A stretch of 64,000 nucleotides of DNA from a virus: IMG/VR virus record IMGVR_UViG_3300022743_000002, positions 1 to 64,000 of that record, one strand, 5' to 3'. The notes beneath the pieces are model-generated. The model was not told the DNA's origin and searched no databases. It worked only from the letters and a program-made list of their open reading frames with translations. Below are positions 4,394 to 46,561 of this stretch, piece by piece; within the stretch, counting starts at the first letter, position 1; every line of letters starts with the position of its first letter. The position numbers and the translations under genes are program-made.

Positions 4394-4414
4394 GCGTGAC
4401 GCCATACTCGCGGC
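4394..4414 (+). promoter_or_regulatory. GTGAC-N14-ATG promoter-like element for the inverted gene
   Basis: GCGTGAC (4394-4400) is followed by exactly 14 nt, with CATACT at -12 to -7, and then the ATG at 4415. It is the only plus-strand member of the family and faces the minus-strand copy for the tail operon. Confidence 0.6.
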
Positions 4415-5167
4415 ATGAGCACGATCAATTACCGCATCTCGCTAGACCTTGGCGCTCAAATGGAATTGAGTCGCGGCATCAAGGCAGAACTGTTCCCACT
4501 GGTAAATCAGGCTGTGAACGGGATCGCCCAGGCCACGGCGTCGCGCTGGATTGAGGCCGTGCAGCGCGCCAAGCTGTGGAGCGGAGAGAAGGACGCCTAC
4601 GCCAAGACGATCACGTACCGGATGATCGGTGATTTCAGTGCCGTCGTGGAGTCCGATTACCGCTACGCCCAGGATATAGAAACCGGGAGGCCACCGCGCG
4701 ACCTCAAGGCGATGCTGAACACCAGCATGAAGGTGCGGACGACCAACAAAGGAACGCGATACCTGATTATCCCATTCCGGCATAACGCCGACACCGTACC
4801 GGACCAGGCTCGCTCTATGAGCCTGAGCACAATTACCGGCCACGGTCGGCGCGTATCTGGCACCGGCGCCTTCAGCCTGTTGACGCGGGCGCCGGCAACC
4901 GTGCGGCAGCGCCAATATAACTGGGGCGATCGCCTCACGGGTCCCAACGTATCGAAGAACCAGCAAGGCATGGTGCGCATGAACACGGCGACAGGCTCAG
5001 GCAAAAAATCCAGCGCATACCTCACATTCAGGGTTATGAGCGAAAAGTCGCGGGGCTGGATAGTCCCGGCGCAACCAGGTCAGAACATCGCCCAGGGTGT
5101 GGCTCAGGAAATGCAACCTTTGGCGGACGAGTTTTTGGCCGAAGCCGTGAGGCGGACGCTCGGCTAA
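4415..5167 (+). CDS. Neck/tail-completion-like protein on the opposite strand
   Basis: A 250-residue protein encoded alone on the plus strand inside a block of minus-strand structural genes. It contains an RYAQDIETGRPPRDLK segment of the kind seen in phage head-tail/tail-completion (gp10-like) proteins, and its composition and size fit a neck protein. It has no Shine-Dalgarno site but carries its own GTGAC box 14 nt before the ATG. It ends 4 nt into the 3' end of the convergent connector gene. The inversion implies that the gene moved with its promoter. Exact neck role is uncertain. Confidence 0.6.
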   Translation: MSTINYRISLDLGAQMELSRGIKAELFPLVNQAVNGIAQATASRWIEAVQRAKLWSGEKDAYAKTITYRMIGDFSAVVESDYRYAQDIETGRPPRDLKAMLNTSMKVRTTNKGTRYLIIPFRHNADTVPDQARSMSLSTITGHGRRVSGTGAFSLLTRAPATVRQRQYNWGDRLTGPNVSKNQQGMVRMNTATGSGKKSSAYLTFRVMSEKSRGWIVPAQPGQNIAQGVAQEMQPLADEFLAEAVRRTLG

Positions 5168-5805
5168 CGCCCAAACAAATCCCATTTCCTTGCCACGACA
5201 CGCTTGGGTAGCCTGGCCCCCTGGTGCTCACCTCGGTCACTCAGGTAGTCCTGGAAAATGAAATACTCGTCGTATTTGTTGCCATTGAGTGAGTAGACCA
5301 TACCAGCCGGCGGTTCACCAATGCCACCGGCCCACGTCAGGTGACCGGTATCGCTCACCGCTGGTATTCCGCCCTCGACGATCAGTCGCGTCGTAGGGTG
5401 CAGCCAAAATACCCGCGTGATATCTTTGACCGGGAACAGGACTCGCTCAGTTGGCGCTCCGTGAGTCATTGGCAGACTGAACACATCGGTGCTGTTGCGC
5501 ATGACAATGCGGTCAAACTGCCCGGCATTGTAGATCGGGCTGTCCTCTGGGATACTGAGAACCATGTCGCCATTCTCAAACATGCCAGACTGCATCCACT
5601 GAGCCTGCACCTTCTGGCTTGCCACGCCGGCTATAGTGGAGATGCCGGCATCCCATATACGTCCCTTGCCAACGCACAGCGCGTGCTTCGGGTCCGCCTG
5701 GCCTGACTGCGGGTTTATGCAGGCGCAGGCGTAGGACCTGCGCCATTCGAGCTCTTGCCCAATGTTGCGCAGAAAGACGTTAAATGCGGCCGGATTGAGT
5801 CGCAT
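5164..5805 (-). CDS. Head-tail joining protein with a Cys cluster
   Basis: The 213-residue product has an N-terminal Cys cluster (SYACACINPQSG, then ALCVGKGRIW about residues 25-50) that could bind a metal, and a beta-rich remainder. It sits between the connector-like gene upstream and the inverted neck gene, so a head-tail joining role is likely. It starts two bases after the upstream gene ends, implying translational coupling. I do not recognise a named family. Confidence 0.6.
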   Translation of the reverse strand: MRLNPAAFNVFLRNIGQELEWRRSYACACINPQSGQADPKHALCVGKGRIWDAGISTIAGVASQKVQAQWMQSGMFENGDMVLSIPEDSPIYNAGQFDRIVMRNSTDVFSLPMTHGAPTERVLFPVKDITRVFWLHPTTRLIVEGGIPAVSDTGHLTWAGGIGEPPAGMVYSLNGNKYDEYFIFQDYLSDRGEHQGARLPKRVVARKWDLFGR

Positions 5806-5806
5806 A

Positions 5807-6913
5807 TTACGCCCCCATCACACCAAAACGAACGCCATGAATGGCTGACATGAGGCCACCATTCGACCCCTTTCCGCCATTTAGAATTCGGTCGATCGTG
5901 TCGTGGTGCTTGTCCATATCGACACTCATTGATTGAGATAGGCCGTCGGCGCTGATTGATCCGGATTGCGGCAGGAATGCGTCCTCAATGATCTTCAGTG
6001 ATGCCTTCTTCATAACGACGTCCACCAGCTCAGGGTAGTCTGACGCAGCGTTGGCGAGTCCGGCGACGTAGGTGATCTGGATGGCCAAAGGGATGGACCG
6101 CCCGCCACCAATTGCCTGCATGACGAAGTTATTGAGTGGCGCCACAAACGCTGTGCTTGAGGGAACGAACTGAATGGTTCCGTACTTCTTGTCCATTCGC
6201 AGCCAATCGAGCGGAAGATCGTAATAGGAGCCAGCTCCACCAGGGTAGGCAAAGCGAACTCGACTAACTGACTGCAGCGGCTTGTTTCGCATCTTGATCA
6301 TGCCCCACTTGTCGTTGTACCCGAAAGACTCCGCGCTGTACTCATAACCAGGATCGATCGCCCAGGCCTGGCCGTTCAATGCGGTAATTTCGCCAGCAGT
6401 CGGCGTTTGGGGGAAAAACACAGTCGGAGCCAGCGGAACTCGCAGAGTGTGCGCAATCTCGGACTCGGCGGCGCGCAGCTTTCCCCAGATGTAGTCATCC
6501 GTCAGTGTCACGGATGGCAGCGCGCTACTGTAAGCCAACATCAGACGCTCAGTCCGCATCTTCAGAATTGTGCCAGCCTTGTCGGGAAACAGCGCGGAAT
6601 TATTGTCGCCGAATACCGCAACCTCCATGGGTATCAGCCAGGTCAGCGTGCCCACGGTAACGCGCATAAGTATGTCGCCAATTGGGAGTGCCGCAGTCTG
6701 GGCATTGGACAACGGAACCACAATGCTGCCAGCAGACCAATTGCTGCCAGTGGTTGTCTCCAGCACAGGCATGGAGCCTAGTAGTACGGTTACGCCATCA
6801 ACGGACGTAAATTGCGCAGAAACAACGGTTCCAGAAGCTATGACGTAAGGAATGCCGGCCTGCTTCAAATTGGCGGTGACATTGACAACGGCACCTTGGG
6901 TGATTGGATTCAC
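5807..6913 (-). CDS. Head-tail connector with N-terminal Ig/FN3-like domain
   Basis: A 368-residue protein. Residues 1-115 look like a beta-sandwich domain. The rest (from KMRTERLMLAYSS onward) has the helical character of head-completion connectors of the gp6/gp15 kind, ending in a region with VVMKKASLKIIEDAF. Connectors bind beneath the portal after packaging. The start is a GTG at 6913 with AGGAG six bases upstream. It lies between base structural genes and the joining protein. Confidence 0.55.
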   Translation of the reverse strand: MNPITQGAVVNVTANLKQAGIPYVIASGTVVSAQFTSVDGVTVLLGSMPVLETTTGSNWSAGSIVVPLSNAQTAALPIGDILMRVTVGTLTWLIPMEVAVFGDNNSALFPDKAGTILKMRTERLMLAYSSALPSVTLTDDYIWGKLRAAESEIAHTLRVPLAPTVFFPQTPTAGEITALNGQAWAIDPGYEYSAESFGYNDKWGMIKMRNKPLQSVSRVRFAYPGGAGSYYDLPLDWLRMDKKYGTIQFVPSSTAFVAPLNNFVMQAIGGGRSIPLAIQITYVAGLANAASDYPELVDVVMKKASLKIIEDAFLPQSGSISADGLSQSMSVDMDKHHDTIDRILNGGKGSNGGLMSAIHGVRFGVMGA

Positions 6914-6921
6914 GATTTCTC

Positions 6922-14928: not shown

Positions 14929-15549
14929 TTACTGCATGACGCGGGCGACGATGCTCTGGGGAATGGCTTCACCGCGGTTCAAGCAGCTTTCAGCCACGGC
15001 AATGTCTGTACCGGACAGGCGTCCTTCTTTCTGCGCGGCCAAAGCCTTCGCAAAAAACACATCGTGGCTCACGCCTGCCGGATCCGACTTCGCCATGGTG
15101 CCGGCACCAGGCTCCGGTTTCTCGACCACGGACACGACGGCTTTGCGGCCGCGGCCTTCTCCGGACAGCTTCTTGACGCTGTCGCTGAGCGACTTGATCA
15201 TCTCAGCCTGGCCTTTGATCAAGTCAATCGCGGATGCCATAGCCTTAGCCATGGTAGCCTCGCCCTTCTCGACCCGATCCTGCAGCGACTTCACCAAATC
15301 GGTGCCGTCCTGAGCTTCAACTTCCGTGCCGTCGTCAAGCGTAAACTTGAACGACTTTGCCATGGGCTTGTCGTCGCCGTCGTCGTCGCCGACAACATCA
15401 TCTGCATCACCATCCGAGCCGCCTTCCGCAGCGGCAGCTTGGATTTTTGATTCATCCTTACCGTCATCCGCCGGGAGCGCCTTGGTCATTGTTTCCTGAT
15501 CCGCACTGAGCTGACCCAGCTCAGCCATCAGCTTTTCAAATTGACTCAT
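14929..15549 (-). CDS. Capsid scaffold protein
   Basis: A 206-residue, strongly acidic, helical protein between the protease and the capsid gene, the canonical position of the scaffold. It has an Asp/Gly-rich stretch at about 45-60 and coiled-coil-like helices at 85-130. It contains five K[SA] sites preceded by hydrophobic-[AT] (TMTKAL, PMAKSF, TMAKAM, TMAKSD, FFAKAL), which I suggest are protease cuts. Its start overlaps the protease stop by 4 nt, with GGAG upstream. Confidence 0.75.
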   Translation of the reverse strand: MSQFEKLMAELGQLSADQETMTKALPADDGKDESKIQAAAAEGGSDGDADDVVGDDDGDDKPMAKSFKFTLDDGTEVEAQDGTDLVKSLQDRVEKGEATMAKAMASAIDLIKGQAEMIKSLSDSVKKLSGEGRGRKAVVSVVEKPEPGAGTMAKSDPAGVSHDVFFAKALAAQKEGRLSGTDIAVAESCLNRGEAIPQSIVARVMQ

Positions 15550-16457
15550 GACTTACTCCGTTTGTTGAGACCATTTTTCAAATCGCGCATGAAGCGCTCC
15601 ACCCACTCAGCAGCCCTATCTGGCGCCATACTGAATTGCTTGGCGGCTTGCTCGACGAGCTCGCGGGCGCCAGGGTTCTTGCCAATGCCGCCGGTGCGCA
15701 TGCGCTCCGCCAGCTTGTTCCTAAAATCAAAATAGCTATGAATTGCGCCATCCAATGACTGCACGCGCATAGCCGAGCCGCCGGCAAGGGCGGCTGAATC
15801 TGTTCCGTATCCAGCTTCGAGTGCCTTTGCGAAGTCGAGGCCATCCGCCGACCAGGACTTCGCGAACGCGCCAAGGGGGATAGTTGCGCAGGTTCCAACG
15901 TGCTGATTTACCGGCGTTTTGGAAACGCCTATATTGTTCCAGCGGACCTTGCTCACGATCGCCTTGCGCATGCCGGTCTTAGCGTCGGCGACGACGGACT
16001 TTGCCAGGACGCTGCCGCCCACCGATGGATACCAGCGCTGGGGCGGGCTCACGTCAGTGATGGAAGACCAGAAGTCATTGGCGCGCTCAGCAGCCGGGCC
16101 GACGCCAGAATAAATCTCGGCCTTGACGAACGTCGTGCCACCTTTCTGGCGCACATCCAGCGGCCGACCGATTTCATACAGTTCGCAACCAGGTATGCCG
16201 GGCCTGCCTTGGGCTGCGTTTGGCTTACCAATCAGCGTGTAGTGATCAATGTCGATATTGCCGTAGCGTTTGAAATACTCCGCACTCTCAGCCAAGGCCT
16301 TCGCAGCGATCACCTCGTCCTGCTGATCAACCCCCTCGTTGCTGGCCTCAAAATAGACGATGCGTTGCCCGCCATCCATTTGGGGCGTTGCTTTGAGCAT
16401 CGAGCCGATACTCAGGAATTCAGGGATGCCAGCAAGGAGCTGATCGTCAGTTCTCAT
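15546..16457 (-). CDS. Prohead protease
   Basis: The 303-residue product has the prohead-protease pattern: a V-Y-F-E-A-S strand (34-39), a D-x-x-D-E-V-I segment (44-50), His72 in NIDIDHY and a Ser at 137 in SITDVSPP, plausible catalytic residues of the herpesvirus-like fold. It matures scaffold and capsid. Residues about 212-250 (AKALEAGYGTD ... RVQSLDG) resemble the capsid N-terminus, so it carries a copy of a capsid-like segment. The gene lacks a Shine-Dalgarno site and is led by a GTGAC-N14-ATG element. Confidence 0.65.
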   Translation of the reverse strand: MRTDDQLLAGIPEFLSIGSMLKATPQMDGGQRIVYFEASNEGVDQQDEVIAAKALAESAEYFKRYGNIDIDHYTLIGKPNAAQGRPGIPGCELYEIGRPLDVRQKGGTTFVKAEIYSGVGPAAERANDFWSSITDVSPPQRWYPSVGGSVLAKSVVADAKTGMRKAIVSKVRWNNIGVSKTPVNQHVGTCATIPLGAFAKSWSADGLDFAKALEAGYGTDSAALAGGSAMRVQSLDGAIHSYFDFRNKLAERMRTGGIGKNPGARELVEQAAKQFSMAPDRAAEWVERFMRDLKNGLNKRSKS

Positions 16458-16478
16458 GCCGCAATGATTGCGTCACGA
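16458..16478 (-). promoter_or_regulatory. GTGAC-N14-ATG promoter-like element, capsid operon
   Basis: TCGTGAC (16478-16472), then 14 nt with AATCAT at -12 to -7, then the protease ATG. It lies just downstream of a terminator, so it is well placed to start the protease-scaffold-capsid transcript. Confidence 0.65.
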
Positions 16479-16504
16479 CTTTATTGGCGCGGCAAAGCAA
16501 CAAC

Positions 16505-17032: not shown

Positions 17033-20000
17033 TCAAAAAAGAGAACCCGGTGCATCTTTTTCAGCGACCTGGCGCTGCTTGATGTAGTGAGCGACCCCCG
17101 TGTCATCCAGGCCCTCCATGGGCGACGTCATGAGCTCGCGCAATCCGTATTTGCGTTGCAACCGCTCACGGGCCTTGTGAACCTCGGGGTGATCGGCAAT
17201 GCCGTCGATCAATTCCACGTTGTTTTTTTGCCCAGTTCGGAAAATTCGCCCGTTGCGCTGCGCATGAGTCATGGCGGTCTGCGGAGTGTCGTGCTGATAC
17301 AACCACTCGCCGCGCTGAATGTTCATACCGGTGGCGCCGGCATCGCTGGCGACAAGAATGTCAGCCTGGGCTTCACCTTGCTCCGGGTTGAACATGAGCC
17401 GCTTGCGCTCTTTTTCCTTGCCGCTATCAGATCCCGTGATGGTGACGACACGGTGCCCCTCTTTTTGCAGTCGCTCAGTGATCATTCGGACTGCTTCGCG
17501 ATTGTGGGCGAACACCACGCCGGGCTTGCCCTTACGATCGGCGGCCTTCTTCACGAGGTCGTCAATCAGCGGATTGTCGGGGTGCGTGTTGATAACGCGC
17601 TGCACGGCTGACGATCGCATGATGCCTAGCGACTGCTGAAGCCCCTTCGCCACCTCATCGTGATCAGCCTCGGCGACGCCATCGAACGATGCCGGGCTGA
17701 TGGCCTTCATGGCGGCAACATCGACCTTACCTTCCATGCGGGCAATGCGAGCGCTGGTGAAATGCTTGTCCAGTTCGGCCAGCGCTTGCTGCTGCCCGCC
17801 GGATAGAGCTACCTTGGATTCTTTGCGGTCAGCCGTGACGTCGGGGTCGATCTTGCTGGGGTAGACGTAACGCGCCATCTCGCGCTTGAGGGCATCCTTG
17901 GACGCCAATGTATCGGCGCCATAGCGACGCATAAAGGCGCCGCGGTCGTTGTAACGAGCCGGATCCATCTTGCGCATGAGGTCATACACTTCGCTGGCAT
18001 CATTCTTGACCGGATCACCTGACGCCGTGACGTAGTAGGGCGTATGGGCTGACAGAGCGTCGACGACGTTGGCCAGGCCGGAATTCTCCTTGCCTTGCCG
18101 GTTCAGTGTGTACTGGCTTTCGTCGGTAGTCAGATAGTCGAAGTTGATGCCTTCGCGCTCCATGATGCCACCCATCCAGTCCTTGCGCTCGGCGTCGGTC
18201 ATAGAGTTAAGGCGGTCCGCCATCTCGGACTCGCTGATACCGGAGTGCGTGGCGCCCAGGTGCATCATGTCGTCTCGGAACGACTGGTGTGTCATCACGC
18301 AGAAATGGTGGTCCGGGTTCTTGTAGGCCTTGATGCGCTCATCACGGCTGGCGCCAGGCTCAATGTGCCAATTGAATTTCCCGGGCTCCAGGTAGCGCAG
18401 AGCCTCGCCTGAGAACTGGCCCTGCACGATCGAAGGCACAAGAAACATTCCGCGCTTTGCCTTTCCTTGCTGGTGCAGGTGCGTAAAGGAAGCCAGCTGC
18501 AATAGTGACTTGCCGGATCCAGTGCCGAAGGCCGCGACGACGCGCTTATTTGCGTCGACCATCTTCACCAGGCGCTGACGGGCCGCATTCTTGCCGCCGC
18601 TCATCGTCGGAGCCCATAGTTTGGTGGGTTGCCCTGGCTTAAAGTTTTTCCCAACGACACCCATCATGCCGGCAATCTGCCTCTCAGCAACATGGCCAAG
18701 GCTGTGTCGCTCGTCGCCCTTTAGGTCTGCTTGCGTAGCCTCTTTTTCGACCGGGGCGTCATCGCTGCCAAAGAATCCCATCTGCGCCTGATTGAATGCC
18801 TCGTCCTGATCGCGCGCGGCATCCAGCTTGTCCGACACGCTTCCGGCTGCGTAGCGCCCCTGGGACCGCTCGCGCAGGCTGTCAACAAGCTCCCGCTCGC
18901 GTGCCTGCCGCTCCTCGCGCGCCGCGGGGTCGGTGGCGTCGAGGTGGTTCAGGTTGTTGCGGATGACGGACCGCCCCAGCTTGAGGGGCTTACCCGGGTT
19001 CAGCTTGTTGTGGTTGTCCGCGAATGCCTTGCCGACGTTGGAGCGGATCAGATCCTGAATGGCCTCGTAAGCCTTCTCGTGCCCGTGCATGGCCTCAACG
19101 TATTTCGGCCAGTCAAGACCGGCAGCGTTGGCTTTTGCCGCGGCTTCATTGCGCTGGGTGCTCCAGTCGCTCCACTCTGGATTGACGGTGGTGTCACCGA
19201 ACATGTCGGTGGTTTCTTTTTCGGGCTCGTTGGCTTCCAGCCGCTCAACTTCAGCGCGCAGTGCGCCCTGCTCGGGGCTTTCCTTCGCCACGTTGCGGTA
19301 AAAGTGCTCGCGCAGTGTACGCTGGTCCTGGCTGGTCAGTTCGCCAATCTGCTTGAATGCGGCTACGCCATCGGGGTGCTCGGACAGCGCCCGGTGCAGG
19401 GCATCAACCGACGTCTGGTCGACGCTGAAGGACTGCCGGTTCAAGGTGCTGCGCTCGCCACCATAACGGTTTTGCACGAACACGTCCGCATAGCCGTCAA
19501 ATGCGCCGGCCAGCGCCTCGGAGCGGCGCTGCTTGCCTTTGGCGTCCTTGAGCGGCGCCACGGCATCGAGCGCGGCGCGGTACTGCTCGGCCTTGTCGAA
19601 CCCGACTTTTTCAAAGAATGCCGCGCTCTGGATATCCGCCACGATATCGCCGGGCGCGTCACCGTCAGCTGCACGACCGCCGATGTAGTCGCGCAGGGAC
19701 TGCTCCAGGTCATCGCCTGGCGTGAACGGCTCCGCCAGTCGCGGTGCCACCCCGGGCTTGACGTCCATCGCCAGATCCGGGCGGTTAGCTACGCCAAGCG
19801 GAAGCCAGCCGTCCTCGTCCTCGTCGCCGCGGATGATGGACAGGTTGCGTTGCACCTGGGCGACGTCGTCGCGGGCGATCGGCTTTGCAAGGCGGTCCAT
19901 GCCGGCGGCGTTGATGGTCAGGAACGTGTCTCCGGCGACGGTGTCAAGCGTGTAGTCGCCGCGCTGCAGGCCGATAGCGCGCACCCGCTGGATTGCAGAC

Positions 20001-21589: not shown

Positions 21590-21610
21590 CCGCCCATAGT
21601 AGGGTCACGA
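21590..21610 (-). promoter_or_regulatory. GTGAC-N14-ATG promoter-like element, helicase gene
   Basis: TCGTGAC (21610-21604), 14 nt including TACTAT at -12 to -7, then the ATG at 21589. It sits in the 24-nt gap after the 109-residue gene. Confidence 0.65.
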
Positions 21611-21613
21611 CCC

Positions 21614-21943
21614 CTACAGCCCGCCGGCGTCAGGATCCACCAACCGGAACGTGCCGCCGCCAGTCGGGTCCGCGACTTCGGACCCACCAAGGTTAAACGA
21701 CGCATTGGTGCGGTATTCCTCGATAGCGGCCGCAAGCGCAGCCTGCAGGTCCGCATGGGCCGGCATGCGCTCGAATACGGACTGATCCATGTGGTCACCA
21801 AGCAGGAACAGGTTGTCGCGGGTGTAGAACTTCTTCAGAACCTGCTTTACCAGGTACCAGTGCGAGCCAAAATTGACATACCGGCTAGGGTCGTCCTGGA
21901 GCAGCTGCAGCGTGCTGGCGGCGAAGGTTTTGGGGTCGATCAT
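21614..21943 (-). CDS. Hypothetical protein between the two giant helicases
   Basis: A 109-residue frame whose ATG overlaps the stop of the DarB-like gene by 4 nt. It has a helical N-terminus and aromatic-rich centre (FGSHWYLVKQVLKKFY), and a Gly-rich C-terminus. No family is recognised. Coupling to the methyltransferase-helicase suggests a partner protein, possibly a chaperone or small subunit. Confidence 0.65.
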   Translation of the reverse strand: MIDPKTFAASTLQLLQDDPSRYVNFGSHWYLVKQVLKKFYTRDNLFLLGDHMDQSVFERMPAHADLQAALAAAIEEYRTNASFNLGGSEVADPTGGGTFRLVDPDAGGL

Positions 21944-28548: not shown

Positions 28549-28569
28549 CCCCAGAGGGTAGCGTCACGA
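28549..28569 (-). promoter_or_regulatory. GTGAC-N14-ATG promoter-like element, DarB-like gene
   Basis: TCGTGAC (28569-28563), 14 nt with TACCCT at -12 to -7, then the ATG at 28548. The box lies between the stop codon of the upstream cargo gene and this start. Confidence 0.65.
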
Positions 28570-28572
28570 TGC

Positions 28573-30903: not shown

Positions 30904-32060
30904 TTTGGTTCCTTGCGCGGCATGGCCGCCAGCTTGTCACGCATCCATTGCCCGAACTCCACATCGTCACCTGGCCGGTCCTGAATCGTCGGAACCCAGC
31001 GCCCACGGCAATGCGGGTGCACCAGGCCGACTGGCACCTGCCACATCTCCTCGGGCTCGCGCTCCTTGAACACGGACCCCACGCGCTTGCGTGGGCTGGC
31101 GCTTCGCCCAACGTTGGTTTTGCCCGGCCAAATCATGGTCTCCGGGTCCTTGTCCTCGCGGGCGGCGTCCACGACTTCCATGACGCGGCCGTCGATTTTG
31201 CGACAGAACGCACAGGCGTTTTTGTACTGCTCGACACGCTTGACCTTGGTGCCCATGGGTAGAGACGACACGTAGCCGGCGGTCTGTGCTTCGCCGGCCT
31301 CGGTCACGGCGATCCGCCGCCAGTCGCGGTTCAGCGTGCCGAACTGGTCGAGGAGCTTGGTCTCCAGACTCGACGACGGTGCCGGCAGTCCGAGCTCGCG
31401 CTCCGTGACGTGCTCGGCAATGACGCCACGCATGCGGTGCCGGACGTCATTGGCGATGTTGCGGACATTCTCGGCACAGCGGGTTTCAGCGTGAGCCATG
31501 GTAGCGCGCTGTGCGACGGTGCCGCCAAACGCCGCAATGGCCTCAGCGGCCGTGCTCGGCATGGCCGCCAGCAGCACGTCGGCCTGCTTGGCGTCGGCGG
31601 CCTCCATGTTGGCCTGCACGCGCCCCATGAGGCTGGCACGTGTCGACAACCAGTCGGCCTCGGTGCGCATGTCGTCTGCAGGCAGGTAGCGCTGCACCGT
31701 CGCGTCGACGGCAAGCATGTGGTCTTCCAGCGTCCAATCGGACGGCGGGAGGTGTTCGAGGTAGATATGGACCAGAGAGAGCTCGCTTTGCGTCCATCGC
31801 TCCATCATGCCGCCAGGGCGAATGATGCGCTCGCCGGGCTTGTGTCGGACGCCGGCGGTCCAGGCCTGAATCTCGGTGCGCACGGCGTCAAGGCGATCGA
31901 GACCGCGCTGCGTGAAAAGCTCGACCAGGCGACGCAGCAACGGGCTATCCATTGGCGCCCAGATGCCGTCGTCGTGGTCATGCGTGGACTTGCACAGGAA
32001 CTCCAGAGCGTCGTTTGTGACGCGCTCACCAAGTTCAATTAAATCGACGAACAAAGACAT
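30900..32060 (-). CDS. MuF/SPP1-gp7-like minor head protein
   Basis: The 386-residue protein ends with the MuF-type head morphogenesis signature: CAFCRKIDGRVMEV (about 290-303) and HPHCRGRWVP (about 355-364), the Cys/His set of this family. The N-terminal half is helical. MuF proteins sit inside the head at the portal vertex and are often fused to or followed by ejected effectors, as here. It begins with a GTGAT-N14-ATG element and no Shine-Dalgarno site, and its stop overlaps the GTG of the polyvalent gene. Confidence 0.8.
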   Translation of the reverse strand: MSLFVDLIELGERVTNDALEFLCKSTHDHDDGIWAPMDSPLLRRLVELFTQRGLDRLDAVRTEIQAWTAGVRHKPGERIIRPGGMMERWTQSELSLVHIYLEHLPPSDWTLEDHMLAVDATVQRYLPADDMRTEADWLSTRASLMGRVQANMEAADAKQADVLLAAMPSTAAEAIAAFGGTVAQRATMAHAETRCAENVRNIANDVRHRMRGVIAEHVTERELGLPAPSSSLETKLLDQFGTLNRDWRRIAVTEAGEAQTAGYVSSLPMGTKVKRVEQYKNACAFCRKIDGRVMEVVDAAREDKDPETMIWPGKTNVGRSASPRKRVGSVFKEREPEEMWQVPVGLVHPHCRGRWVPTIQDRPGDDVEFGQWMRDKLAAMPRKEPK

Positions 32061-32081
32061 GCTGGCAGTATGCGATCACGA
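32061..32081 (-). promoter_or_regulatory. GTGAT-N14-ATG promoter-like element, MuF gene
   Basis: TCGTGAT (32081-32075), 14 nt with CATACT at -12 to -7, then the ATG at 32060. A second box of the same kind lies 192 nt upstream. Confidence 0.65.
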
Positions 32082-32252
32082 CGAAAAGCCGGAGCGGTTT
32101 CCAGCCCCGGCGATCCGGCGCGACCCTGGCACGGCGCGTAAACGCCGGAAAGGAACCGACCTCCAACCCTCAATGGACGTCGGCGCCATGTCGCGCTGCG
32201 GCCTTTATATCCCGAATGAACCGCAAACGGTCACGCTCAAGCCAACACTAAC

Positions 32253-32273
32253 AATGGCAGTGTGCAGTCACGA
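32253..32273 (-). promoter_or_regulatory. Orphan TCGTGAC box without a start codon
   Basis: TCGTGAC (32273-32267) is followed by TGCACACTGCC, close to the MuF copy, with CACACT in the -10 place, but GTT stands where ATG would be. It directly follows a terminator. It could start a short untranslated RNA over 32082-32252, in which I see only a 35-codon frame of doubtful value. Confidence 0.45.
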
Positions 32274-32274
32274 C

Positions 32275-33392: not shown

Positions 33393-34980
33393 TTTCACGC
33401 CCCTTCAAATTCCACAAGATCATTCTAGGCGTTGGCATAGATTTAGTCAAATTTGATGATTCATTCTGTTGTTGTTTCTCACCAGCCTTAGCTTTCTCCC
33501 AGGCATCACCGTAGAGAGACTCCTGCTCTTTCATGGCGGCGGCGTGCGTCTCACGGTCCTTGGCGTCCCATTTGCTTGTATCTGAGCCAACGCCATTCTC
33601 GCGATATTTACCTTCTATTGATCGCGTTGTCTCGTATGGCTTGTGGCCTTTTTCCTTGGCCAGCGTCATTGGCTTCACGTGCACCTGCATCTCGGCGAGC
33701 ATGCCGTTGGGTAGCCGCATGATCATGTTGATATCGCGGTAGCCGCCCGGCAATGGCTTGACCAGGTTGTTCTTGGGCTTCTGCGCCAGCTCGATGCCGG
33801 CCGCCTTGAGCTCGGCGAGCACCTTCGGGATTTGGGTGACGCCAGGCACTGCGATTGTGGCGCGCACCATGTCGCGCAGCTGCGACCAGTCGCCGTCGTA
33901 GTCCTGGGCGACCTTCTCCTTGGCGCGCTTCTCGCCCTTGAGCGGGCCCATGAACAGGTAGCCGCGATCGTCGTCCCAGTGCTCGGGCAGCATGTAGTCG
34001 GTGTCGGACAGGTCGGCCGGATTGCGGCCTTCCTTCTCGGCGTTGATCTTCTCCTCGTGCTGGGCGTGGTCCAGCGACTGCGGGCGCTTGCCGGTCACCA
34101 GACCAAGATTCTGCGCGACCTTGCTGAGCATATCGCTGTACTGCTTCAGGCCTTCCTCGCCCTTGGACTTCAGTTCATCCCATGACTGGACAGGCTGATT
34201 GACCTTGGTCGGCAGCTTATCGAGCTCTGAGGTATCGAATAGCGCGCGAGCGATCCCCTCGGCGCCGTCGGGGGCCGGCTTTGGCGTTCCCGGCGCGTCT
34301 ACCTGGTTGGGTTGCGTCTCCTGGTGCGGACTCGCGTCCGGCTTACCTTCGCCGCCCCAGTGGTGGGTAATTTTGTCATGCGTTACAAGGTGTTGGCCAC
34401 CGGCGCTGTCCCGGACACGCACGCCGTCCTTGCCGGATGCCGTTACCTCGCCGTGCCCCTTGTGCTCGCCATTGGCAAAGCCGACGTGCTGGCCGCGCTG
34501 GGCCGGCGGGCTACCCTGGTCAGTGCTGACCCACTTGGTAGTTTGAACGCCATTCTTATCAGTGATTACCTTCTTTTGCAGACCGGGTGCACCAGCGTAG
34601 GTTCCCGGCGCTGACGCCTTCATAAATAGCATGACGGGCCGCGTGTGCCCCATTGATTTAGCGACCATTGGGTCTTCCTTGGATTCGTTTGGTATTGCCA
34701 CAAATCGACGCCGGCCGGACTTGTCCTCGACCAGCATGCCATCCTCTCCTTGATCGACGACGGCGTATTTTTGCAGGGCCCGGGTCTTGTGACCAAGGAC
34801 CTTGTCCCATCGGACCGGGTGATGGCCGCCGTCAATCTCGACGGTTACGCCGTGCTTTCCGTGCGCCTTGACCAAGCCGGTGCGCGGTTGTCCGCGGTGG
34901 TGCACATACAGATGGTCGCCCACCTCGACGTCGTGGCGCGGCTCCGGCTCCGGGCGCGGCTTAGGCTTCTGGTAGGTCAT
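33382..34980 (-). CDS. RelA/SpoT-type nucleotidyltransferase with virion-cargo tag
   Basis: A 532-residue protein. Two SH3/KOW-like beta segments (about 20-60 and 165-205) flank a tag (AKSM then VMLFMKAS near 108-122). The C-terminal half has the RelA/SpoT fold: K-R-A-K-E-K-V near 350, LRDMVRATI near 370, GGYRDIN near 411 and AEMQVHV near 425. Such enzymes transfer pyrophosphate to GTP/GDP, ATP or tRNA; many single-domain ones are toxins. I cannot tell the substrate. The ATG overlaps the portal stop by 4 nt. An HD hydrolase follows, as in toxin-antidote pairs. Confidence 0.78.
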   Translation of the reverse strand: MTYQKPKPRPEPEPRHDVEVGDHLYVHHRGQPRTGLVKAHGKHGVTVEIDGGHHPVRWDKVLGHKTRALQKYAVVDQGEDGMLVEDKSGRRRFVAIPNESKEDPMVAKSMGHTRPVMLFMKASAPGTYAGAPGLQKKVITDKNGVQTTKWVSTDQGSPPAQRGQHVGFANGEHKGHGEVTASGKDGVRVRDSAGGQHLVTHDKITHHWGGEGKPDASPHQETQPNQVDAPGTPKPAPDGAEGIARALFDTSELDKLPTKVNQPVQSWDELKSKGEEGLKQYSDMLSKVAQNLGLVTGKRPQSLDHAQHEEKINAEKEGRNPADLSDTDYMLPEHWDDDRGYLFMGPLKGEKRAKEKVAQDYDGDWSQLRDMVRATIAVPGVTQIPKVLAELKAAGIELAQKPKNNLVKPLPGGYRDINMIMRLPNGMLAEMQVHVKPMTLAKEKGHKPYETTRSIEGKYRENGVGSDTSKWDAKDRETHAAAMKEQESLYGDAWEKAKAGEKQQQNESSNLTKSMPTPRMILWNLKGRENGN

Positions 34981-36722
34981 GATTGAATTCTGAACACCGG
35001 CAGGCCAAACGACTTGGCTATGTCCTGCTGATCATCTCCGGGCCTCTCCGTAGCCCCAGCATCATCGGGCGCCCCGAAGTCTTGCCCGCCCTGATCGTCA
35101 CCAAAATCCTGATCGCCGCCGCCGTCATCGCCGTCATCGGTCGACTGCCCAGGCTCAGCGCCAGGCTGGCCGTAGTCCTCTTGCTGCGGCATTGCCTCTT
35201 GTTGCCAGGCGCCAACCAGCGAGGGATTCAATGGAGCGTCACCCCACTTACCGTCGGCCTTGTCGACGCCGTCCTCGGCTCGGATCTCGTTGACGGTGCG
35301 CGTCATTTTTTTGCGCTCCCAGATCGTCTTTTCGTCTTCCTCGTCCAGGCCGGTGAACTGGAATTCGTACTTGTCACTGAACTCGCCAATGACGTACTCG
35401 CTCAGCGTGGACTCGAAATAGCTCAGCAGGGGGCGCAGGCCCTTGTCTTTGCTGTTGACGATCTTCTCCTCGGTGTCGTCTCCGCTCAGCGATGACGTTC
35501 CGGACGTGAAGCTCTCAAAATTGATTTCCTCGGGCGCAATGCCGTAGATCGCGCAGATGATGGATGACAAGAACGTCATCCACTTGGCGAACATGATTTC
35601 GTTGGCGGCGTTACCGAATTCCGTGAAGTCGGCTTTCGACTCCTGATCCTTGGACACCATGACGGGCAGCGTCCAGGCGTTATTGACGCCCTTGACCATG
35701 CCGTTCCAGTAGCGCTTAAAGGCGGCAACATCCTCGTCGCTGTAGTTTCCGTACAGGTTCAGCATGCCCTTGGGTATGGCGTTGCTGTCGAAAAATTTGG
35801 TGTTGTAGGTGAAGGCGTTCAGAAAGCCCGTCACCACGCGGATAAGCAGTTCCGTCTCGGACAGTCCGTAGCCGCCAGCAAGCACGTCGGTGCGTGGGTT
35901 GCGCGGCACATACACCAGGTCGTCATAGGTGTAGGCGCTGCGGATCTGGCCTTGCACGACCTGGAGGGCGAAAATCTCGTCTTCGCCTTGGTAGCCGTCT
36001 TCGCTGCACAACCGAATGGTGGCTCCGTCGACGGCGTACATGCCGTCCAGGCCGAGCGACTTGTCGCGCTTCCACTCGGTCTCAATCGGTGCGCTGTCCA
36101 TGGTGAGGCTGTCGCGCACCAGCTTCATCATGAAGTTTTGGAAGTTGTCGCGCTTCAGGCGCAGGCGCTGGCGGGGCTTGGTCTCCCAGCCGCTGTTGGT
36201 CACGAATGACTCCAGCAGCTTAATGGTGGCCTTTTCGTTTTCGTCGATGTTCTCCAGCTTTTCCTTGCTGGCGATCCTGAAACCCGACCCCTTGCCACCC
36301 TTCTGCGGCCGGCAAAACCTGGCCACCTGGCGCTGGCGCGTCATTATGACGGCGTTCAAAATCGGCGTTTGGTCCACCATGGCGCGCATGGCATCAAACG
36401 TGAATTGGCCGGGTCGCTCGAACCAGTCGCCGTTGATGTTGATCTGCAGGTCGTCCAGCCAGACCGACTGCATGCCGGGCTTCTTGTCTTTGATGGCATT
36501 CGACGGGAACGGGATGACGTTCTGCTTTTGCAGCGACTTCGCCATGGCCTGATCGTCCAGGTCACGGTTGATGTAGTCAATGATGGGCTGAATGTTCGCC
36601 GCCGGTATCAGGTCCGACAACGCCTTGGGCATGCTGGATTTTTGAAGCTCCGCCATGGCTTCAGTCCGCTCGTCGGCGGGCGCACGTGGATCAGCGAGTA
36701 TGGCGCGGGCAGCATCAGTCAT
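34977..36722 (-). CDS. Portal protein
   Basis: The 581-residue protein has portal features: a helical N-terminus, the central ILNAVIMTRQRQVARF segment (about 120-135), a beta domain, the VTGFLNAFTYN helix, and a GTSSLSGDD loop before the C-terminal acidic, Gly/Gln-rich tail. It forms the dodecameric DNA gate at one head vertex. Three KS/KA sites in the termini (SSMPKAL, AMAKSL, DIAKSF) resemble sites in the scaffold, hinting at maturation cleavage. It lacks a Shine-Dalgarno site and follows a GTGAC-N14-ATG element. Confidence 0.8.
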   Translation of the reverse strand: MTDAARAILADPRAPADERTEAMAELQKSSMPKALSDLIPAANIQPIIDYINRDLDDQAMAKSLQKQNVIPFPSNAIKDKKPGMQSVWLDDLQININGDWFERPGQFTFDAMRAMVDQTPILNAVIMTRQRQVARFCRPQKGGKGSGFRIASKEKLENIDENEKATIKLLESFVTNSGWETKPRQRLRLKRDNFQNFMMKLVRDSLTMDSAPIETEWKRDKSLGLDGMYAVDGATIRLCSEDGYQGEDEIFALQVVQGQIRSAYTYDDLVYVPRNPRTDVLAGGYGLSETELLIRVVTGFLNAFTYNTKFFDSNAIPKGMLNLYGNYSDEDVAAFKRYWNGMVKGVNNAWTLPVMVSKDQESKADFTEFGNAANEIMFAKWMTFLSSIICAIYGIAPEEINFESFTSGTSSLSGDDTEEKIVNSKDKGLRPLLSYFESTLSEYVIGEFSDKYEFQFTGLDEEDEKTIWERKKMTRTVNEIRAEDGVDKADGKWGDAPLNPSLVGAWQQEAMPQQEDYGQPGAEPGQSTDDGDDGGGDQDFGDDQGGQDFGAPDDAGATERPGDDQQDIAKSFGLPVFRIQS

Positions 36723-36743
36723 GCCTGAAGGGTAACGTCACGA
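36723..36743 (-). promoter_or_regulatory. GTGAC-N14-ATG promoter-like element, portal operon
   Basis: TCGTGAC (36743-36737), 14 nt with TACCCT at -12 to -7, then the portal ATG. It probably drives portal, synthetase, small protein and HD genes up to the terminator at 32.28 kb. Confidence 0.65.
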
Positions 36744-36816
36744 CATTTTTTATCCCGGAGTGTTGCTTATTTTTGAGTAATGGCATTAGAATTCGTCAAC
36801 ATTCACAAGGAGTTTT

Positions 36817-40789: not shown

Positions 40790-40810
40790 TCCCGCATTTT
40801 GCGATCACGA
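40790..40810 (-). promoter_or_regulatory. GTGAT-N14-ATG promoter-like element, tag-protein gene
   Basis: TCGTGAT (40810-40804), 14 nt with CAAAAT at -12 to -7, then the ATG at 40789. It overlaps the 3' end of the terminase gene. Confidence 0.62.
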
Positions 40811-42925
40811 CCTACGCGCCACAAAAAGCACGCAGCTGACGTCGCGCACGCCCACCTGAAGCTGGCGGTCCTCGCACATGCCGGTATCAGCATTGCGTGC
40901 CGTGCACCGCCCGCATACGCCATCCGGCAGGGTTTCCAGCATGGTTGTGACCGCCGTCGGCAGTCCGTGCATGTTCATGCTGGCCGCTTTGTCTTTGAGC
41001 TCTTGCTGCGCGCTACCCCCGTCCGGAATAATGAAGGTCGCGGTTCCGTGCGACCGGGACCAGGCGACGTCGCAAAGCATGTTGGCATAGCTAAAGTGCG
41101 GGTCGATCCCGACCTTCTTCACGCTGCGCTTGTACTGGTTCGTCTCGTCGTCCTTCTCAGCCACCAACGCCGTTTTGGTGAAGTGGTGAAATGCCCGCGG
41201 CAACACCGCCATGGTCTGGGTCTTGCCCTTCTCGATCACGTCCTGCACCAGGCCTTGCGGATCCGGGAACAGGCACAGCTGGCCAGTCAGGCGCGCCATA
41301 CTGACCTGCATGCACTTGTACTGGTCCATGCGCAGCGTGTAGCGGTCGCGCTCATTTTCATCGGTCCGGCGATCGCTTACGTCTAACCTGGGTGCGTCGC
41401 CCCACAGGACCATACCCTCCTTGACCTGACCGAAGCTGTCGCAAATAAACACCCGACCCTTGTGGCGATTTGCGAAGCGCTTGGCGTCGTTGTAGTTCGG
41501 GTTGATTTCGACAACGCACACCGCGACGCCAAAAGCGTCCATGAGCTCGTCGCAGCGTCCAAACGGGTCAGCGTCGTAGATTTCCTCTACGTGCACCACA
41601 GCCTGGCGCCCGTCCGGCAGTCGCTCCTTGATAACGGCGACGTTGAAGTTGCCCATTTGGTCGATACCCATGAAGCAACTGCGACCGCGGGTCTTCCACT
41701 GCACCCCGGCGGCCTTGCCGGCCTCCACGCACGCCGCCAAGTGCTCCAGGGTGACTGGCACCTGACTGGGGTCGACATAGGGCTTGCCGCGCTTGCGATT
41801 GAAAAAGTTCTTCATATCGCTGGCGGTCTGGTACGCCGTGATGATTTCATCGGCGCTGATCGTTGGGCTCAGGTACTGCGGGAAGTGGATCGACCGGATC
41901 CGCAGCCGGCGCTCCTTGAGTGGCACGCCCACCTCGGGCCCGCGATCACGTTCCGGGTGCTCGGCTCGCCACTCGCCGGCCTGGGTGTCGTCAATCCAGT
42001 GACCGTTGGGGCAGACGTAGCGGTATATTTCCCGCTGCTTGTCCCACTTAATGCAGTCCGGGAAATAGTCGTCCAGGGGCTTGCTGGTGCCGCACGTCGG
42101 GCATGTCGTGTGAAACTGGTGCTTGGTGCCCTTCTTGTACCAAAAGTCGATATCGGCGTCGGGCCAGTTTGCGGTAGACCCCATGAGCATGAAGCGGACC
42201 GTGCTGGCGCTGACGCGCTCGTAGGTCTTCTCGATTTGCTCCAGCGTCATCTCCTGCACCTCGTCGAAGCTCAGGACGTCCATGGGAATGGACTCCGTCG
42301 TCGCGCGGCCGCTGGTCCAGCTGAAGATGAAAAGCGCCTGGTCGATGCGGCGCCGGTTGACGTTGCCCTCGCCCTGCTTGCGGCCGCTGCCGTCTGGTGC
42401 GTCCTGGGTCATGAGCTCGTGCACGCTGGGCACGCTGCGCACGATCGGCATGAAGCGCTCGCTCGATTTCAGGCCGGCCAGATTCATGTCGGGCAGGAAC
42501 ATGCCGACGATGCAGGGACCGAACTTTATGCCGAGGTAGATCGTCGCCAGCATCTCCATGACGGTGAAGCCAACCTGGGCGCACTTCATGAGCACCAGGA
42601 CGTACCGGTAGGCTTCCTCGCGCGTGCTTGGTATCTGGTCGTAGATCCACGCCATAGCCGGGCGGTCGTCGAGGGTGAAGCGCTTGCCGTCCACCTTGAG
42701 GCCGTCGCTGCCGTCGGGCTTTGTGCCGCGGCCCAAGTGCTCGCACCACTCGCGGAATGACTGGCCGTCCGGGATGACTTCCTTTTCGTTGATGCGAAAC
42801 CCGGTCTTGGCTTCCAGCTGGGCAATCGCTTGCGCCAGCCCACCATTGAAGTCGGGCATGCGGCGACGGTTGCCGCTCCCGGCGCCGGTAGGCTTGTAGG
42901 CGCGGCCGTTAGCTGCGAAGGCCAT
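40805..42925 (-). CDS. terL: Terminase large subunit (GpA-like)
   Basis: A 706-residue DNA-packaging motor. The ATPase half has the GpA-type Walker A variant (MKCAQVGFT near 114-122) and Walker B LSFDEVQEM near 225. A zinc-finger-like region CPTCG...YVCPNGHW follows near 285-325. The nuclease half carries FMGIDQMGNF near 418 and VVEINPNYNDAKRF near 475. It cuts concatemers and translocates DNA into the prohead. It starts 3 nt after the small-subunit gene stop. The portal gene is 4 kb away, the plus-strand block having come between. Confidence 0.88.
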   Translation of the reverse strand: MAFAANGRAYKPTGAGSGNRRRMPDFNGGLAQAIAQLEAKTGFRINEKEVIPDGQSFREWCEHLGRGTKPDGSDGLKVDGKRFTLDDRPAMAWIYDQIPSTREEAYRYVLVLMKCAQVGFTVMEMLATIYLGIKFGPCIVGMFLPDMNLAGLKSSERFMPIVRSVPSVHELMTQDAPDGSGRKQGEGNVNRRRIDQALFIFSWTSGRATTESIPMDVLSFDEVQEMTLEQIEKTYERVSASTVRFMLMGSTANWPDADIDFWYKKGTKHQFHTTCPTCGTSKPLDDYFPDCIKWDKQREIYRYVCPNGHWIDDTQAGEWRAEHPERDRGPEVGVPLKERRLRIRSIHFPQYLSPTISADEIITAYQTASDMKNFFNRKRGKPYVDPSQVPVTLEHLAACVEAGKAAGVQWKTRGRSCFMGIDQMGNFNVAVIKERLPDGRQAVVHVEEIYDADPFGRCDELMDAFGVAVCVVEINPNYNDAKRFANRHKGRVFICDSFGQVKEGMVLWGDAPRLDVSDRRTDENERDRYTLRMDQYKCMQVSMARLTGQLCLFPDPQGLVQDVIEKGKTQTMAVLPRAFHHFTKTALVAEKDDETNQYKRSVKKVGIDPHFSYANMLCDVAWSRSHGTATFIIPDGGSAQQELKDKAASMNMHGLPTAVTTMLETLPDGVCGRCTARNADTGMCEDRQLQVGVRDVSCVLFVARRS

Positions 42926-43606: not shown

Positions 43607-43627
43607 GATCGAATGATAGCGTCACGA
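43607..43627 (-). promoter_or_regulatory. GTGAC-N14-ATG promoter-like element, terminase operon
   Basis: TCGTGAC (43627-43621), 14 nt with TATCAT at -12 to -7, then the ATG at 43606. Confidence 0.65.
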
Positions 43628-43642
43628 TGATAGTGTGATAGC
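43628..43642 (-). promoter_or_regulatory. CTATCAC operator-like repeats at the terminase promoter
   Basis: CTATCACACTATCA directly abuts the TCGTGAC box on its upstream side; a very similar block with CTATCACAACTATCA then GTGACGC occurs at 49410-49432. Likely a repressor or activator site. Confidence 0.5.
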
Positions 43643-43694: not shown

Positions 43695-43700
43695 CAGGGC

Positions 43701-43972: not shown

Positions 43973-44057
43973 GAAGTTCTCCCGGTCAAATCCAACCGGG
44001 TCAAAGTACACGCGGCGCCAGGGATGCGCGCCATGGCAAGGCGTGAATTGCGGTGAA

Positions 44058-44746: not shown

Positions 44747-44925
44747 TGCGCTCCCTCCGCTGGGCAGCCAGGGCGATCGTCCATGCAGGTGCGCGGCGGT
44801 ACGCCTCGAACCGTGATGCCGCATGTCGGGCAGGTCCAGCACGTGACGATCAGCGGCTCACCAGCTGGCAGGACCTTGGCCAAGAGCTCGGGCTCCTGGG
44901 CTTGGGGGCGGTCGGGGTCGATCAT
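44743..44925 (-). CDS. Small zinc-ribbon-like protein
   Basis: A 60-residue frame from the ATG at 44925, overlapping the upstream stop. It has CWTCPTCG near the centre and two further Cys near the end, a likely zinc site. Function unknown. Confidence 0.6.
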   Translation of the reverse strand: MIDPDRPQAQEPELLAKVLPAGEPLIVTCWTCPTCGITVRGVPPRTCMDDRPGCPAEGAQ

Positions 44926-45233: not shown

Positions 45234-45871
45234 GCTGCACCGCCTTCCTTCGCCAGGCGCTCGCGCAGCGCGTAGCCCATCAGCGGCCAGACCTTTTGCA
45301 CGGCATTGGCGCGCGCGATTTTGCGGCCCAGCTCGGCATCGAAGTTCTCGGGGCTGGCGCAGGCCGACTCGCCGGTGACGGTGAAGCCGTTGCGCAGTAC
45401 CAGGACGCAAAAAGTCAACAGAGAGAGCGGGTGATCGACTTCGCGGATTGGGTTGTAACTGATGCAGTCAACACCGTTTTGGGCGGTGAAGTAGTATTCA
45501 CTGGCGATGTTCGCCTCAATATCCGCAGGCGTCACACGCGGCGCCGTCAGGCCCTTGGCTTTGATTTCGGCTTCGATGGGGTCTGCACTCAGATGCTCAG
45601 TCTGTGCGTCTGGCTTTGTTTCCACTGGGGCGGACGTGTCAGCGACGGTCGTCGGGCGCGTATCGGGCGCGGTGCCACCCAGCACGTGCTCCAGCATGGC
45701 GCGAGCTTGGACGGCATTTAGCAGATTGGTGCCGATTGGCACGGCGTTGTTTTTCGCAGCGCTGATACGGTCGAACGTGATGTAGCAGTCAGGCGCGAAG
45801 TCCGCCGGCAGATTCCAACTCAAAAAGCGGGACACCATGTCGTCGGTGACGACGGTGGCGGGGTTGGTCAT
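45230..45871 (-). CDS. Gp49-family phage protein
   Basis: A 213-residue protein whose C-terminal half fits the phage Gp49-like family: VTPADIEANIASEYYFTA, LLTFCVLVLRNGFTVTGES, and GRKIARANAVQKVWPLMGY. The role of this widespread family is unknown. GGAG precedes the ATG. A tandem CGGGCGC pair (45653-45670 on the plus strand) lies inside the gene. Confidence 0.75.
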   Translation of the reverse strand: MTNPATVVTDDMVSRFLSWNLPADFAPDCYITFDRISAAKNNAVPIGTNLLNAVQARAMLEHVLGGTAPDTRPTTVADTSAPVETKPDAQTEHLSADPIEAEIKAKGLTAPRVTPADIEANIASEYYFTAQNGVDCISYNPIREVDHPLSLLTFCVLVLRNGFTVTGESACASPENFDAELGRKIARANAVQKVWPLMGYALRERLAKEGGAA

Positions 45872-45936
45872 AGGGTCTCCAGTAGTCGCCGGGATCCGCC
45901 CGGCTCGGTTTCTGAATTGTACTCTTTTTTGATCAT
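45868..45936 (-). CDS. Micro-ORF (22 residues) in an overlap chain
   Basis: ATG at 45936 overlaps the upstream micro-ORF stop, and the TGA overlaps the Gp49-like start. The product MIKKEYNSETEPGGSRRLLE... is charged. It may serve only to couple translation. Confidence 0.3.
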   Translation of the reverse strand: MIKKEYNSETEPGGSRRLLETL

Positions 45937-46016
45937 TCCGAATCGTCGGGCAGTTCGGGCCAGCTGGCGCGCCACATCACGGCACAAAACATCCACAGGG
46001 CGAGCGGTGGCCACAT
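45933..46016 (-). CDS. Micro-ORF (27 residues), hydrophobic start
   Basis: ATG at 46016 overlaps the TAA of the metallopeptidase gene (TAATG), with GGGAGG upstream. The product starts MWPPLALWMFCAVMWRA, like a short membrane peptide. Confidence 0.35.
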   Translation of the reverse strand: MWPPLALWMFCAVMWRASWPELPDDSE

Positions 46017-46540
46017 TAGGCGGCCCTCCCGGCAGCAAGGAATGAGGCGATGGTGTTGTCCCATGCGCCGTAGCGCTGCACCTCGGCATTGAACGCGGCG
46101 ACGTCGTGCTCCACCAGGCGCCATACCGGGTAGCCGTCCTTGTCGAACTTCATCGCCCCGTACTCGTCGGTGGCTTGCCGGACGTGACAGAGCTCGTGAT
46201 AGACCAGCGCCTCGCGCTCGATCGCCGACGCTTCCGCCCACCATGTCGCATCGATTACGATGACGTAGTCAGGCAGCCCGCGGAGTAGCCGCGTCAGCAT
46301 CATCGCGAACAGGTCTTTGAACGCTCCCTGGCACATGGTCTTGACGGCGTGCACGGATCCAAGCTCGACCTTGCCACCCTTCTCTTTGGGTGTCGCCCGC
46401 ATGAGGTAGCCAAAGCGCACCTCATGCTCTGCAAGCGGGAAATGCTCGGGCAGCCGCATCAGGCGCTCGGCAATGGTCGCCGGGTGCGTAGCCTCGTCTG
46501 GCAGCATGAATGGGTCGAATTCGTCGTTGGTGTCGTTCAT
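46016..46540 (-). CDS. Phage metallopeptidase-like protein
   Basis: The 174-residue product has a zinc-protease HELCH (115-119), with ALVYHELCHVRQ and a downstream VEHDVAAFNAEVQRYG segment that could give the third ligand. It fits the phage putative-metallopeptidase family (PhageMetallopep). The substrate is unknown. No Shine-Dalgarno site; GTGAC-N14-ATG upstream, so it starts its own transcript covering the accessory operon. Confidence 0.8.
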   Translation of the reverse strand: MNDTNDEFDPFMLPDEATHPATIAERLMRLPEHFPLAEHEVRFGYLMRATPKEKGGKVELGSVHAVKTMCQGAFKDLFAMMLTRLLRGLPDYVIVIDATWWAEASAIEREALVYHELCHVRQATDEYGAMKFDKDGYPVWRLVEHDVAAFNAEVQRYGAWDNTIASFLAAGRAA

Positions 46541-46561
46541 GGCTGTAGTGTGGTGTCACGC
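46541..46561 (-). promoter_or_regulatory. GTGAC-N14-ATG promoter-like element, accessory operon
   Basis: GCGTGAC (46561-46555), 14 nt with CACACT at -12 to -7, then the ATG at 46540. The TGA inside the box is also the stop of the upstream gene. Confidence 0.6.

Follow-up and report, generated by a model that had tools for sequence, protein, structure and literature searches.

The DNA analysed here, hereafter the window, is the first 64,000 nucleotides (nt) of the 87,750-base (87.75 kb) virus record IMGVR_UViG_3300022743_000002, in which a short box with a GTGAY core stands at a fixed distance upstream of start codons on both strands. We consider it highly probable, on comparative sequence evidence, that these boxes mark the late promoters of a phage clade, at which a phage activator would bind the box GTCGTGAY ahead of a sigma70-like -10 hexamer, with mostly leaderless messenger RNAs (mRNAs) as the product and with the leadered copies placed within split hairpins. 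In the proposed mechanism the activator would be encoded by the phage and made early, and would recruit the host sigma70 RNA polymerase in place of the -35 contact, with late switch-on of the head, tail, packaging, antirestriction and lysis genes. Transcription would start 7-8 nt after the T at -7, a point that in roughly two of every three copies would be the A of the ATG, and the remaining copies would have leaders of 9-36 nt, usually with a Shine-Dalgarno site.

A preliminary description of this DNA had listed nine start codons preceded by TCGTGAY or GCGTGAC exactly 14 nt before the ATG. All nine boxes were recovered at their positions, each ahead of an ATG that opens an open reading frame (ORF) of between 122 and 2202 amino acids (aa), and the A at -11 and the T at -7, described as constant, were indeed present in 9/9. 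Random expectation was obtained from first-order Markov (dinucleotide-matched) simulation with 300 runs. The loose pattern GTGAY-N14-ATG was matched 11 times in the window against 4.3 expected, and the two surplus matches (24965 and 46748, both +) lack the C at -20, immediately 5' of GTGAY, and were attributed to chance. The full form (T/G)CGTGAY-N3-A-N3-T-N6-ATG occurred nine times, whereas the simulations averaged 0.02 and never exceeded 1. Furthermore, when the spacing between T(-7) and the ATG was scanned from 0 to 19, N6 gave nine matches, N7 two and every other value 0 or 1, which together with the full-form count rules out a chance origin of the boxes.

The contrast previously drawn between boxed genes, mostly devoid of a Shine-Dalgarno site, and their unboxed neighbours also held in this genome, with cores found in 0/10 boxed vs 26/52 unboxed genes (Fisher test, p = 0.003). 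Terminators directly 5' of some boxes were likewise seen, for example at 16479 and 32274. Of two near-copies mentioned earlier, the one at 4370 is a genuine member (box 4387-4380, -; N7; ATG 4364), with which the N-termini of homologues agree; the other, at 32267, corresponds to a promoter spanning 32274-32259 (-), which some 210 nt separate from the start codon 32060 and after which no ORF is immediately evident. Outside the window, the genome has three further boxes, 71540 and 78901 (both -, leadered) and 83000 (-, leaderless), the last preceding a baseplate gene. The predicted late promoters of the window (box plus -10) are as follows.

4393..4408, + strand: GGCGTGACGCCATACT, N6 to ATG 4415; 250-aa protein, kept in all relatives.
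4372..4387, - strand: GTCGTGACGCCAAAAT, N7 to ATG 4364; 277-aa protein, equal in length to the 277-aa homologues in phages Dolphis and ST4.
16464..16479, - strand: GTCGTGACGCAATCAT, N6 to ATG 16457; head maturation protease (15546-16457).
21596..21611, - strand: GTCGTGACCCTACTAT, N6 to ATG 21589; 1518-aa DNA helicase (17033-21589).
28555..28570, - strand: ATCGTGACGCTACCCT, N6 to ATG 28548; 2202-aa DarB-like antirestriction protein (21940-28548).
32067..32082, - strand: GTCGTGATCGCATACT, N6 to ATG 32060; 386-aa protein (30900-32060) with weak similarity to minor head proteins.
32259..32274, - strand: GTCGTGACTGCACACT, tandem upstream promoter, 3' of a terminator and with no clear ORF directly behind.
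36729..36744, - strand: GTCGTGACGTTACCCT, N6 to ATG 36722; portal protein (34977-36722).
40796..40811, - strand: GTCGTGATCGCAAAAT, N6 to ATG 40789; 122-aa protein.
43613..43628, - strand: ATCGTGACGCTATCAT, N6 to ATG 43606; 225-aa protein, the gene immediately preceding that of the large terminase (40805-42925).
46547..46562, - strand: GGCGTGACACCACACT, N6 to ATG 46540; phage metallopeptidase (PF18894).

The promoter at 16464..16479 comes after a terminator-like hairpin with a T-run. Across phages the genes behind the boxes include those for portal, protease, baseplate, pre-terminase and DarB-like proteins and the lysis operon of a Yersinia phage, and by analogy the boxed genes of this genome would have late functions.

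The proteins and the gene order of this phage match those of Bordetella phage vB_BbrM_PHB04 and of Pseudomonas phages Dolphis and Jeremy, and the genome follows a P1-like plan (DarB-like protein, tail sheath, head protease, portal, terminase). Retention of the motif and its spacing in relatives had been named beforehand as the comparison on which the proposal would stand or fall, and the box was found to be kept in 43 of 47 orthologous upstream regions. In these regions, taken from viral contigs, the box, A(-11), T(-7) and the N6/N7 distance to the ATG were kept in 29 of 31 portal and 14 of 16 protease orthologues, while positions -6..-2 drift. A matrix built from 32 hand-chosen portal and protease upstream regions was then run on complete phages outside the training set. 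It gave 14 matches in this genome, 19 in PHB04, 16 each in Dolphis and Jeremy, eight in Aeromonas phage ST4, nine in Yersinia phage fHe-Yen8-01 and 12 each in Touem01 and phiT5282EW, against 0-1 in Mecenats66, D6, JK004 and P1 and 0-4 in shuffled sequence. The wider search of the full genome and relatives that had been proposed earlier was thus carried out and the motif recurred, GTCGTGAY-N2-YANNMT being present in 8-19 copies per phage in eight phages with hosts in Bordetella, Pseudomonas, Aeromonas, Yersinia and Enterobacter.

Apart from these genomes, all IMG/VR contigs (2.9 million) were scanned blindly for an exact 25-base pattern consisting of box, -10, spacer and ATG, which returned 93 stretches with N6, 32 with N7 and four with N10. 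Among the N6 loci newly fetched, 73 of 78 encode homologues of proteins of this phage and 75 of 78 ATGs open a sizeable frame; homologues were encoded at 21 of the 32 N7 loci. A scan of bacterial genomes with the protease found no relative. The assignment of the boxes as probable late promoters of a P1-like myovirus clade (Phabquatrovirus PHB04 and relatives) is supported by these comparisons.

The element is composed of the 8-base-pair (bp) GTCGTGAY at -22 to -15, standing 2 bp ahead of a sigma70-like -10, YANNMT, in which A-11 and T-7 are fixed. Because the regular expressions used fix some positions, the invariance of columns has to be judged from the unfiltered alignment of portal and protease orthologues, where a sigma70-type -10 with A-11 and T-7 was present. 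This -10 is weak, with A or C at -8, and between -35 and -30 there was no conserved column of a -35 hexamer except a weak C.

In a set of 165 non-redundant sites the offset from T(-7) to the start codon was 6-7 nt in 88, 8-20 nt in six and 21-42 nt in 41, and every phage has some boxes away from an ATG. As the distance between box and -10 is the same in both start classes, they represent one DNA element, and the start codon is predicted to sit either at its +1 or far enough off to leave room for a leader. Shine-Dalgarno cores were found at 1/88 leaderless vs 25/44 leadered sites. A C stands directly before the ATG at 70/88 leaderless sites vs 24/52 unboxed genes (p = 8e-5), and as CA is the usual initiation preference, this C(-1) is consistent with transcription starting at that A. 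We infer that A to be the transcription start in the leaderless class from the bimodal offsets, the C(-1) and the position of the hairpin arm described below; with +1 at this base, the mRNA would be leaderless and its translation would need no Shine-Dalgarno site. The earlier suggestion of leaderless phage mRNAs is therefore retained for about two thirds of the copies, for which they are predicted; about one third of the box promoters are not leaderless, and the box is for that reason better seen as a general late-promoter element.

Many leadered copies contain an inverted repeat, the 5' arm of which runs from -6, right behind the -10, while the 3' arm lies in the leader and is often followed by a T-run and the ATG. 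Examples of repeat and T-run are fHe-Yen8-01 30137 (before the holin-endolysin genes), phiT5282EW 4151, ST4 3897, Dolphis 28081 and PHB04 90389; at PHB04 702 and at 78901 in this genome, the 3' arm holds a Shine-Dalgarno-like stretch. Controls were made by exchanging the -6..-1 hexamers between sites. The folding gain of the leadered sites averaged -4.52 kcal/mol vs -2.40 (standard deviation 0.25) in these controls, and helices of at least 7 bp starting at -10..-1 were found in 13/77, whereas the controls averaged 1.5 and reached 5 at most; eight of the observed helices begin exactly at -6. A weaker shift was seen in the leaderless class (-3.48 vs -2.94, standard deviation 0.14). The location of the 5' arm just upstream of the proposed +1 gives independent support for that +1. 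RNA reading through from upstream would contain both arms and would terminate or hide the ribosome site, and RNA born at the promoter, being without the 5' arm, would escape.

A comparable placement is known from T4 gene e (also soc, 49 and I-TevI), in which a late promoter lies inside an inhibitory hairpin, so that late transcripts without the 5' arm are translated and longer ones are blocked (PMC3014915). In both cases the promoter occupies the DNA that specifies the 5' arm of a hairpin in the RNA, and the gene e-type inverted repeat, with the 5' arm upstream of +1 and the 3' arm in the leader, was found in the leadered class as a group. However, gene e uses gp55 and TATAAATA, whereas here, within a single promoter family, many members have an arm that begins precisely at -6, and several of the hairpins resemble complete intrinsic terminators that run as far as the ATG.

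It should be added that in Morganella phage Mecenats66 (OL614104) the terminase start, at about 29033, has no GTCGTGAC box, and TATAAT is directly followed by CCCCGC..GCGGGGGTTTT-ATG. By its sequence this site is a putative further example of the split-terminator arrangement, here combined with a consensus -10. The same phage, which has no matrix match, nevertheless carries TCGTGAT before two orthologous late genes.

Several points weigh against the interpretation as activator-dependent, mainly leaderless late promoters. The 165 sites were selected by the presence of CGTGAY and by the matrix, and the invariance of those columns is partly by construction; for 24 of the 165, a clear start codon is missing from the 47 nt that follow. 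Leadered copies show no more than a slight excess of A at the proposed +1 (17 A, 13 T, 9 C and 6 G; n = 45), so that the actual start may shift by one or two positions. The family of Lpa (PF25716 / phrog_1704), the P1 activator, was over the cut-off in 0/8 motif phages and present in P1, D6 and JK004, and conservation filtering combined with structure prediction settled on no activator gene.

Among the alternatives, we think it unlikely that the element belongs to the same system as in P1, namely an Lpa-type activator acting on a -22 box with host SspA and sigma70. The annotated late promoters in the P1 record have a 9-bp -22 box followed by the hexamer, AAGTGACTT-N4-TANAAT. These Lpa (gp10) promoters resemble the present ones in serving late genes of a P1-like myovirus, in lacking a -35, in a spacer box with a GTGAC core and in a degenerate, sigma70-like TANNNT -10, and DarB-like proteins and the genome plan are common to both phage groups. 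Yet the boxes differ (AAGTGACTT vs GTCGTGAY), as does the distance from GTGAC to the -10, which is 6 nt in P1 and 2 nt here; start codons in P1 follow the -10 after 20-89 nt, with leaders, whereas the mRNAs here would be mostly leaderless. The P1-type pattern of AAGTGACTT, N4 and a -10 occurred in none of seven of the eight motif phages and once in ST4, and the lack of an Lpa match in the eight points the same way.

Recognition by unmodified sigma70 polymerase alone, as a kind of extended -10 promoter at which no phage factor is needed, appears quite improbable to us. It would agree with the TANNNT-like -10, with the ability of RNA polymerase to contact the spacer and with no activator gene having been pinned down. 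Against this, the -10 is a poor one (half of all sites have C or T at -8) and has no -35, and yet eight bases of the spacer hardly vary between phages from several host genera. The TG of the standard extended -10 (-15,-14) is absent, and the early genes of these phages seem to be served by -35/-10 promoters of the ordinary kind, as read from the regions upstream of portal and protease. The absent -35, the weak -10 and the 8-bp spacer box kept across host genera argue for a phage factor working with host sigma70 polymerase, which is most likely what reads the element, as far as its sequence indicates.

An ordinary -35/-10 promoter facing the opposite way also seems to be present in the portal intergenic region (36745-36790 in the window; loci L010-L046), for example TTGACC-N17-GATAAT in L012. 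It probably serves an early operon transcribed divergently, and the two promoter types, early and late, adjoin each other.

We regard as decidedly improbable a phage sigma factor or RNA polymerase that would read the whole -22 to -7 element in place of host sigma70. The length and near invariance of the element and the use of this strategy by many phages speak for it, but the A-11/T-7 pattern fits sigma70 and no sigma70 region 2 or 4 family was over the cut-off in the eight genomes, in a search whose controls worked. A search for a single-subunit polymerase gave no match and was uninformative, as the positive controls were missed as well. Perfect small hairpins at 16457 and 40789 hinted at promoters of the N4 virion-polymerase type, a reading that was rejected because the other sites are without them.

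An RNA-level translation signal, that is, an unusual binding site for the ribosome or a factor, is hardly credible in spite of the distance to the ATG being fixed in most copies and GTGAT fitting part of the extended anti-Shine-Dalgarno complement, given that about a third of the copies sit 15-36 nt further from the start codon with unchanged box-to--10 spacing, that genes of these distant copies usually have a Shine-Dalgarno core of their own and that A-11 together with T-7 is typical of a -10. A Shine-Dalgarno variant was rejected too, 14 nt being too far for contact and the leadered class being in existence.

For the phage factor that, in our preferred explanation, would act with host sigma70 polymerase, the following candidates were noted, each present in 8/8 motif phages and with a role inferred only.

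47531..48067, - strand: candidate activator gene 1, a 178-aa cysteine-rich (zinc-finger-like) protein.
47244..47537, - strand: candidate activator partner, a 97-aa cysteine-rich protein, the gene overlapping that of the 178-aa protein, with the same distribution.
58598..58819, - strand: candidate activator gene 2, a small helix-turn-helix protein.

The cysteine-rich pair lies upstream of the terminase region, as lpa does in P1, and it is also found in Mecenats66; the small helix-turn-helix protein was not detected in the motif-less Mecenats66, P1, D6 and JK004. Structure prediction decides nothing on the activator: the AlphaFold model of the 178-aa protein was poor (predicted local distance difference test, pLDDT, 42), and that of the helix-turn-helix protein (pLDDT 80) resembled lambda-repressor-like folds alone, with no match reaching E <= 0.001. 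In the divergent pair of this genome, the promoter at 4393..4408 (+) stands back-to-back with that at 4372..4387 (-), an arrangement with orthologues in PHB04, Dolphis, Touem01, phiT5282EW and Jeremy. The sequence upstream of each box is there the other promoter, and an activator site further upstream is therefore hard to fit.

We give somewhat better than even chances to the view that this is an undescribed class of late promoter, in which an activator that is neither Lpa nor a sigma factor would act at GTCGTGAY, driving a mainly leaderless late regulon in proteobacteria with its leadered members built into split terminators or hairpins, which would leave promoter-initiated RNA as the only productive form. 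A literature search, subscription journals lying outside it, found no description of the element. Transcripts of Thermus phage P23-45 are leaderless. That system differs in the wide use of leaderless genes by the host, in the displacement of sigma region 4 by the phage factor gp39 and in having no GTCGTGAC box; its middle and late promoters are of the extended -10 type and independent of a -35 (PMC7403470). In Deinococcus-Thermus, -10 regions adjoining ORFs give leaderless mRNA (PMC12340547), and, as proposed here, the position of the -10 puts the transcription start at the start codon; those, however, are host genes of another phylum without a spacer box, whereas here a phage late regulon in proteobacteria is concerned.

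Should the interpretation be correct, many virion proteins of a large group of myoviruses on common Gram-negative bacteria would come from leaderless mRNAs, and infection would offer a natural high-output system for studies of leaderless translation. Leaderless mRNAs are usually seen as rare in proteobacteria. The element would also point to an undiscovered transcription activator and offer a compact combination of promoter and terminator, with which a gene might be shielded from read-through, and it may mark the late genes of uncultured relatives from sequence alone. Moreover, it predicts exact start codons, some of which are misplaced in public records: the portal start of ST4 (OR261032) is annotated at 70060 and predicted at 70150, 90 nt upstream, and that of fHe-Yen8-01 (OR620963) is annotated at 653 and predicted at 587, 66 nt upstream. 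The upstream ATG was chosen in both because the promoter element and homology point there, the annotated starts lying inside the conserved coding region.

Some minor features of individual sites should also be mentioned. At the protease sites of fHe-Yen8-01 (3726, +) and phiT5282EW (31031, -), the leaderless position is occupied by the two-codon ORF ATG-TTT-TGA, after which come AAAGGG and the real ATG; this is, to judge from the layout, a putative leaderless mini-ORF ahead of a leadered gene. In PHB04, box promoters at 25935 and 25677 (-) form a second tandem pair ahead of the large helicase gene, with about 260 nt between them. Finally, between the tandem promoters of the window (32100-32274, -; loci L120-L124) a short stretch, TGACCGTCTGCGGTTCATTCGGGATATAAAGGCCGCAG, is conserved in several relatives and may correspond either to a short ORF, with the frame ..VHSGYKGRSA.., or to a small RNA.

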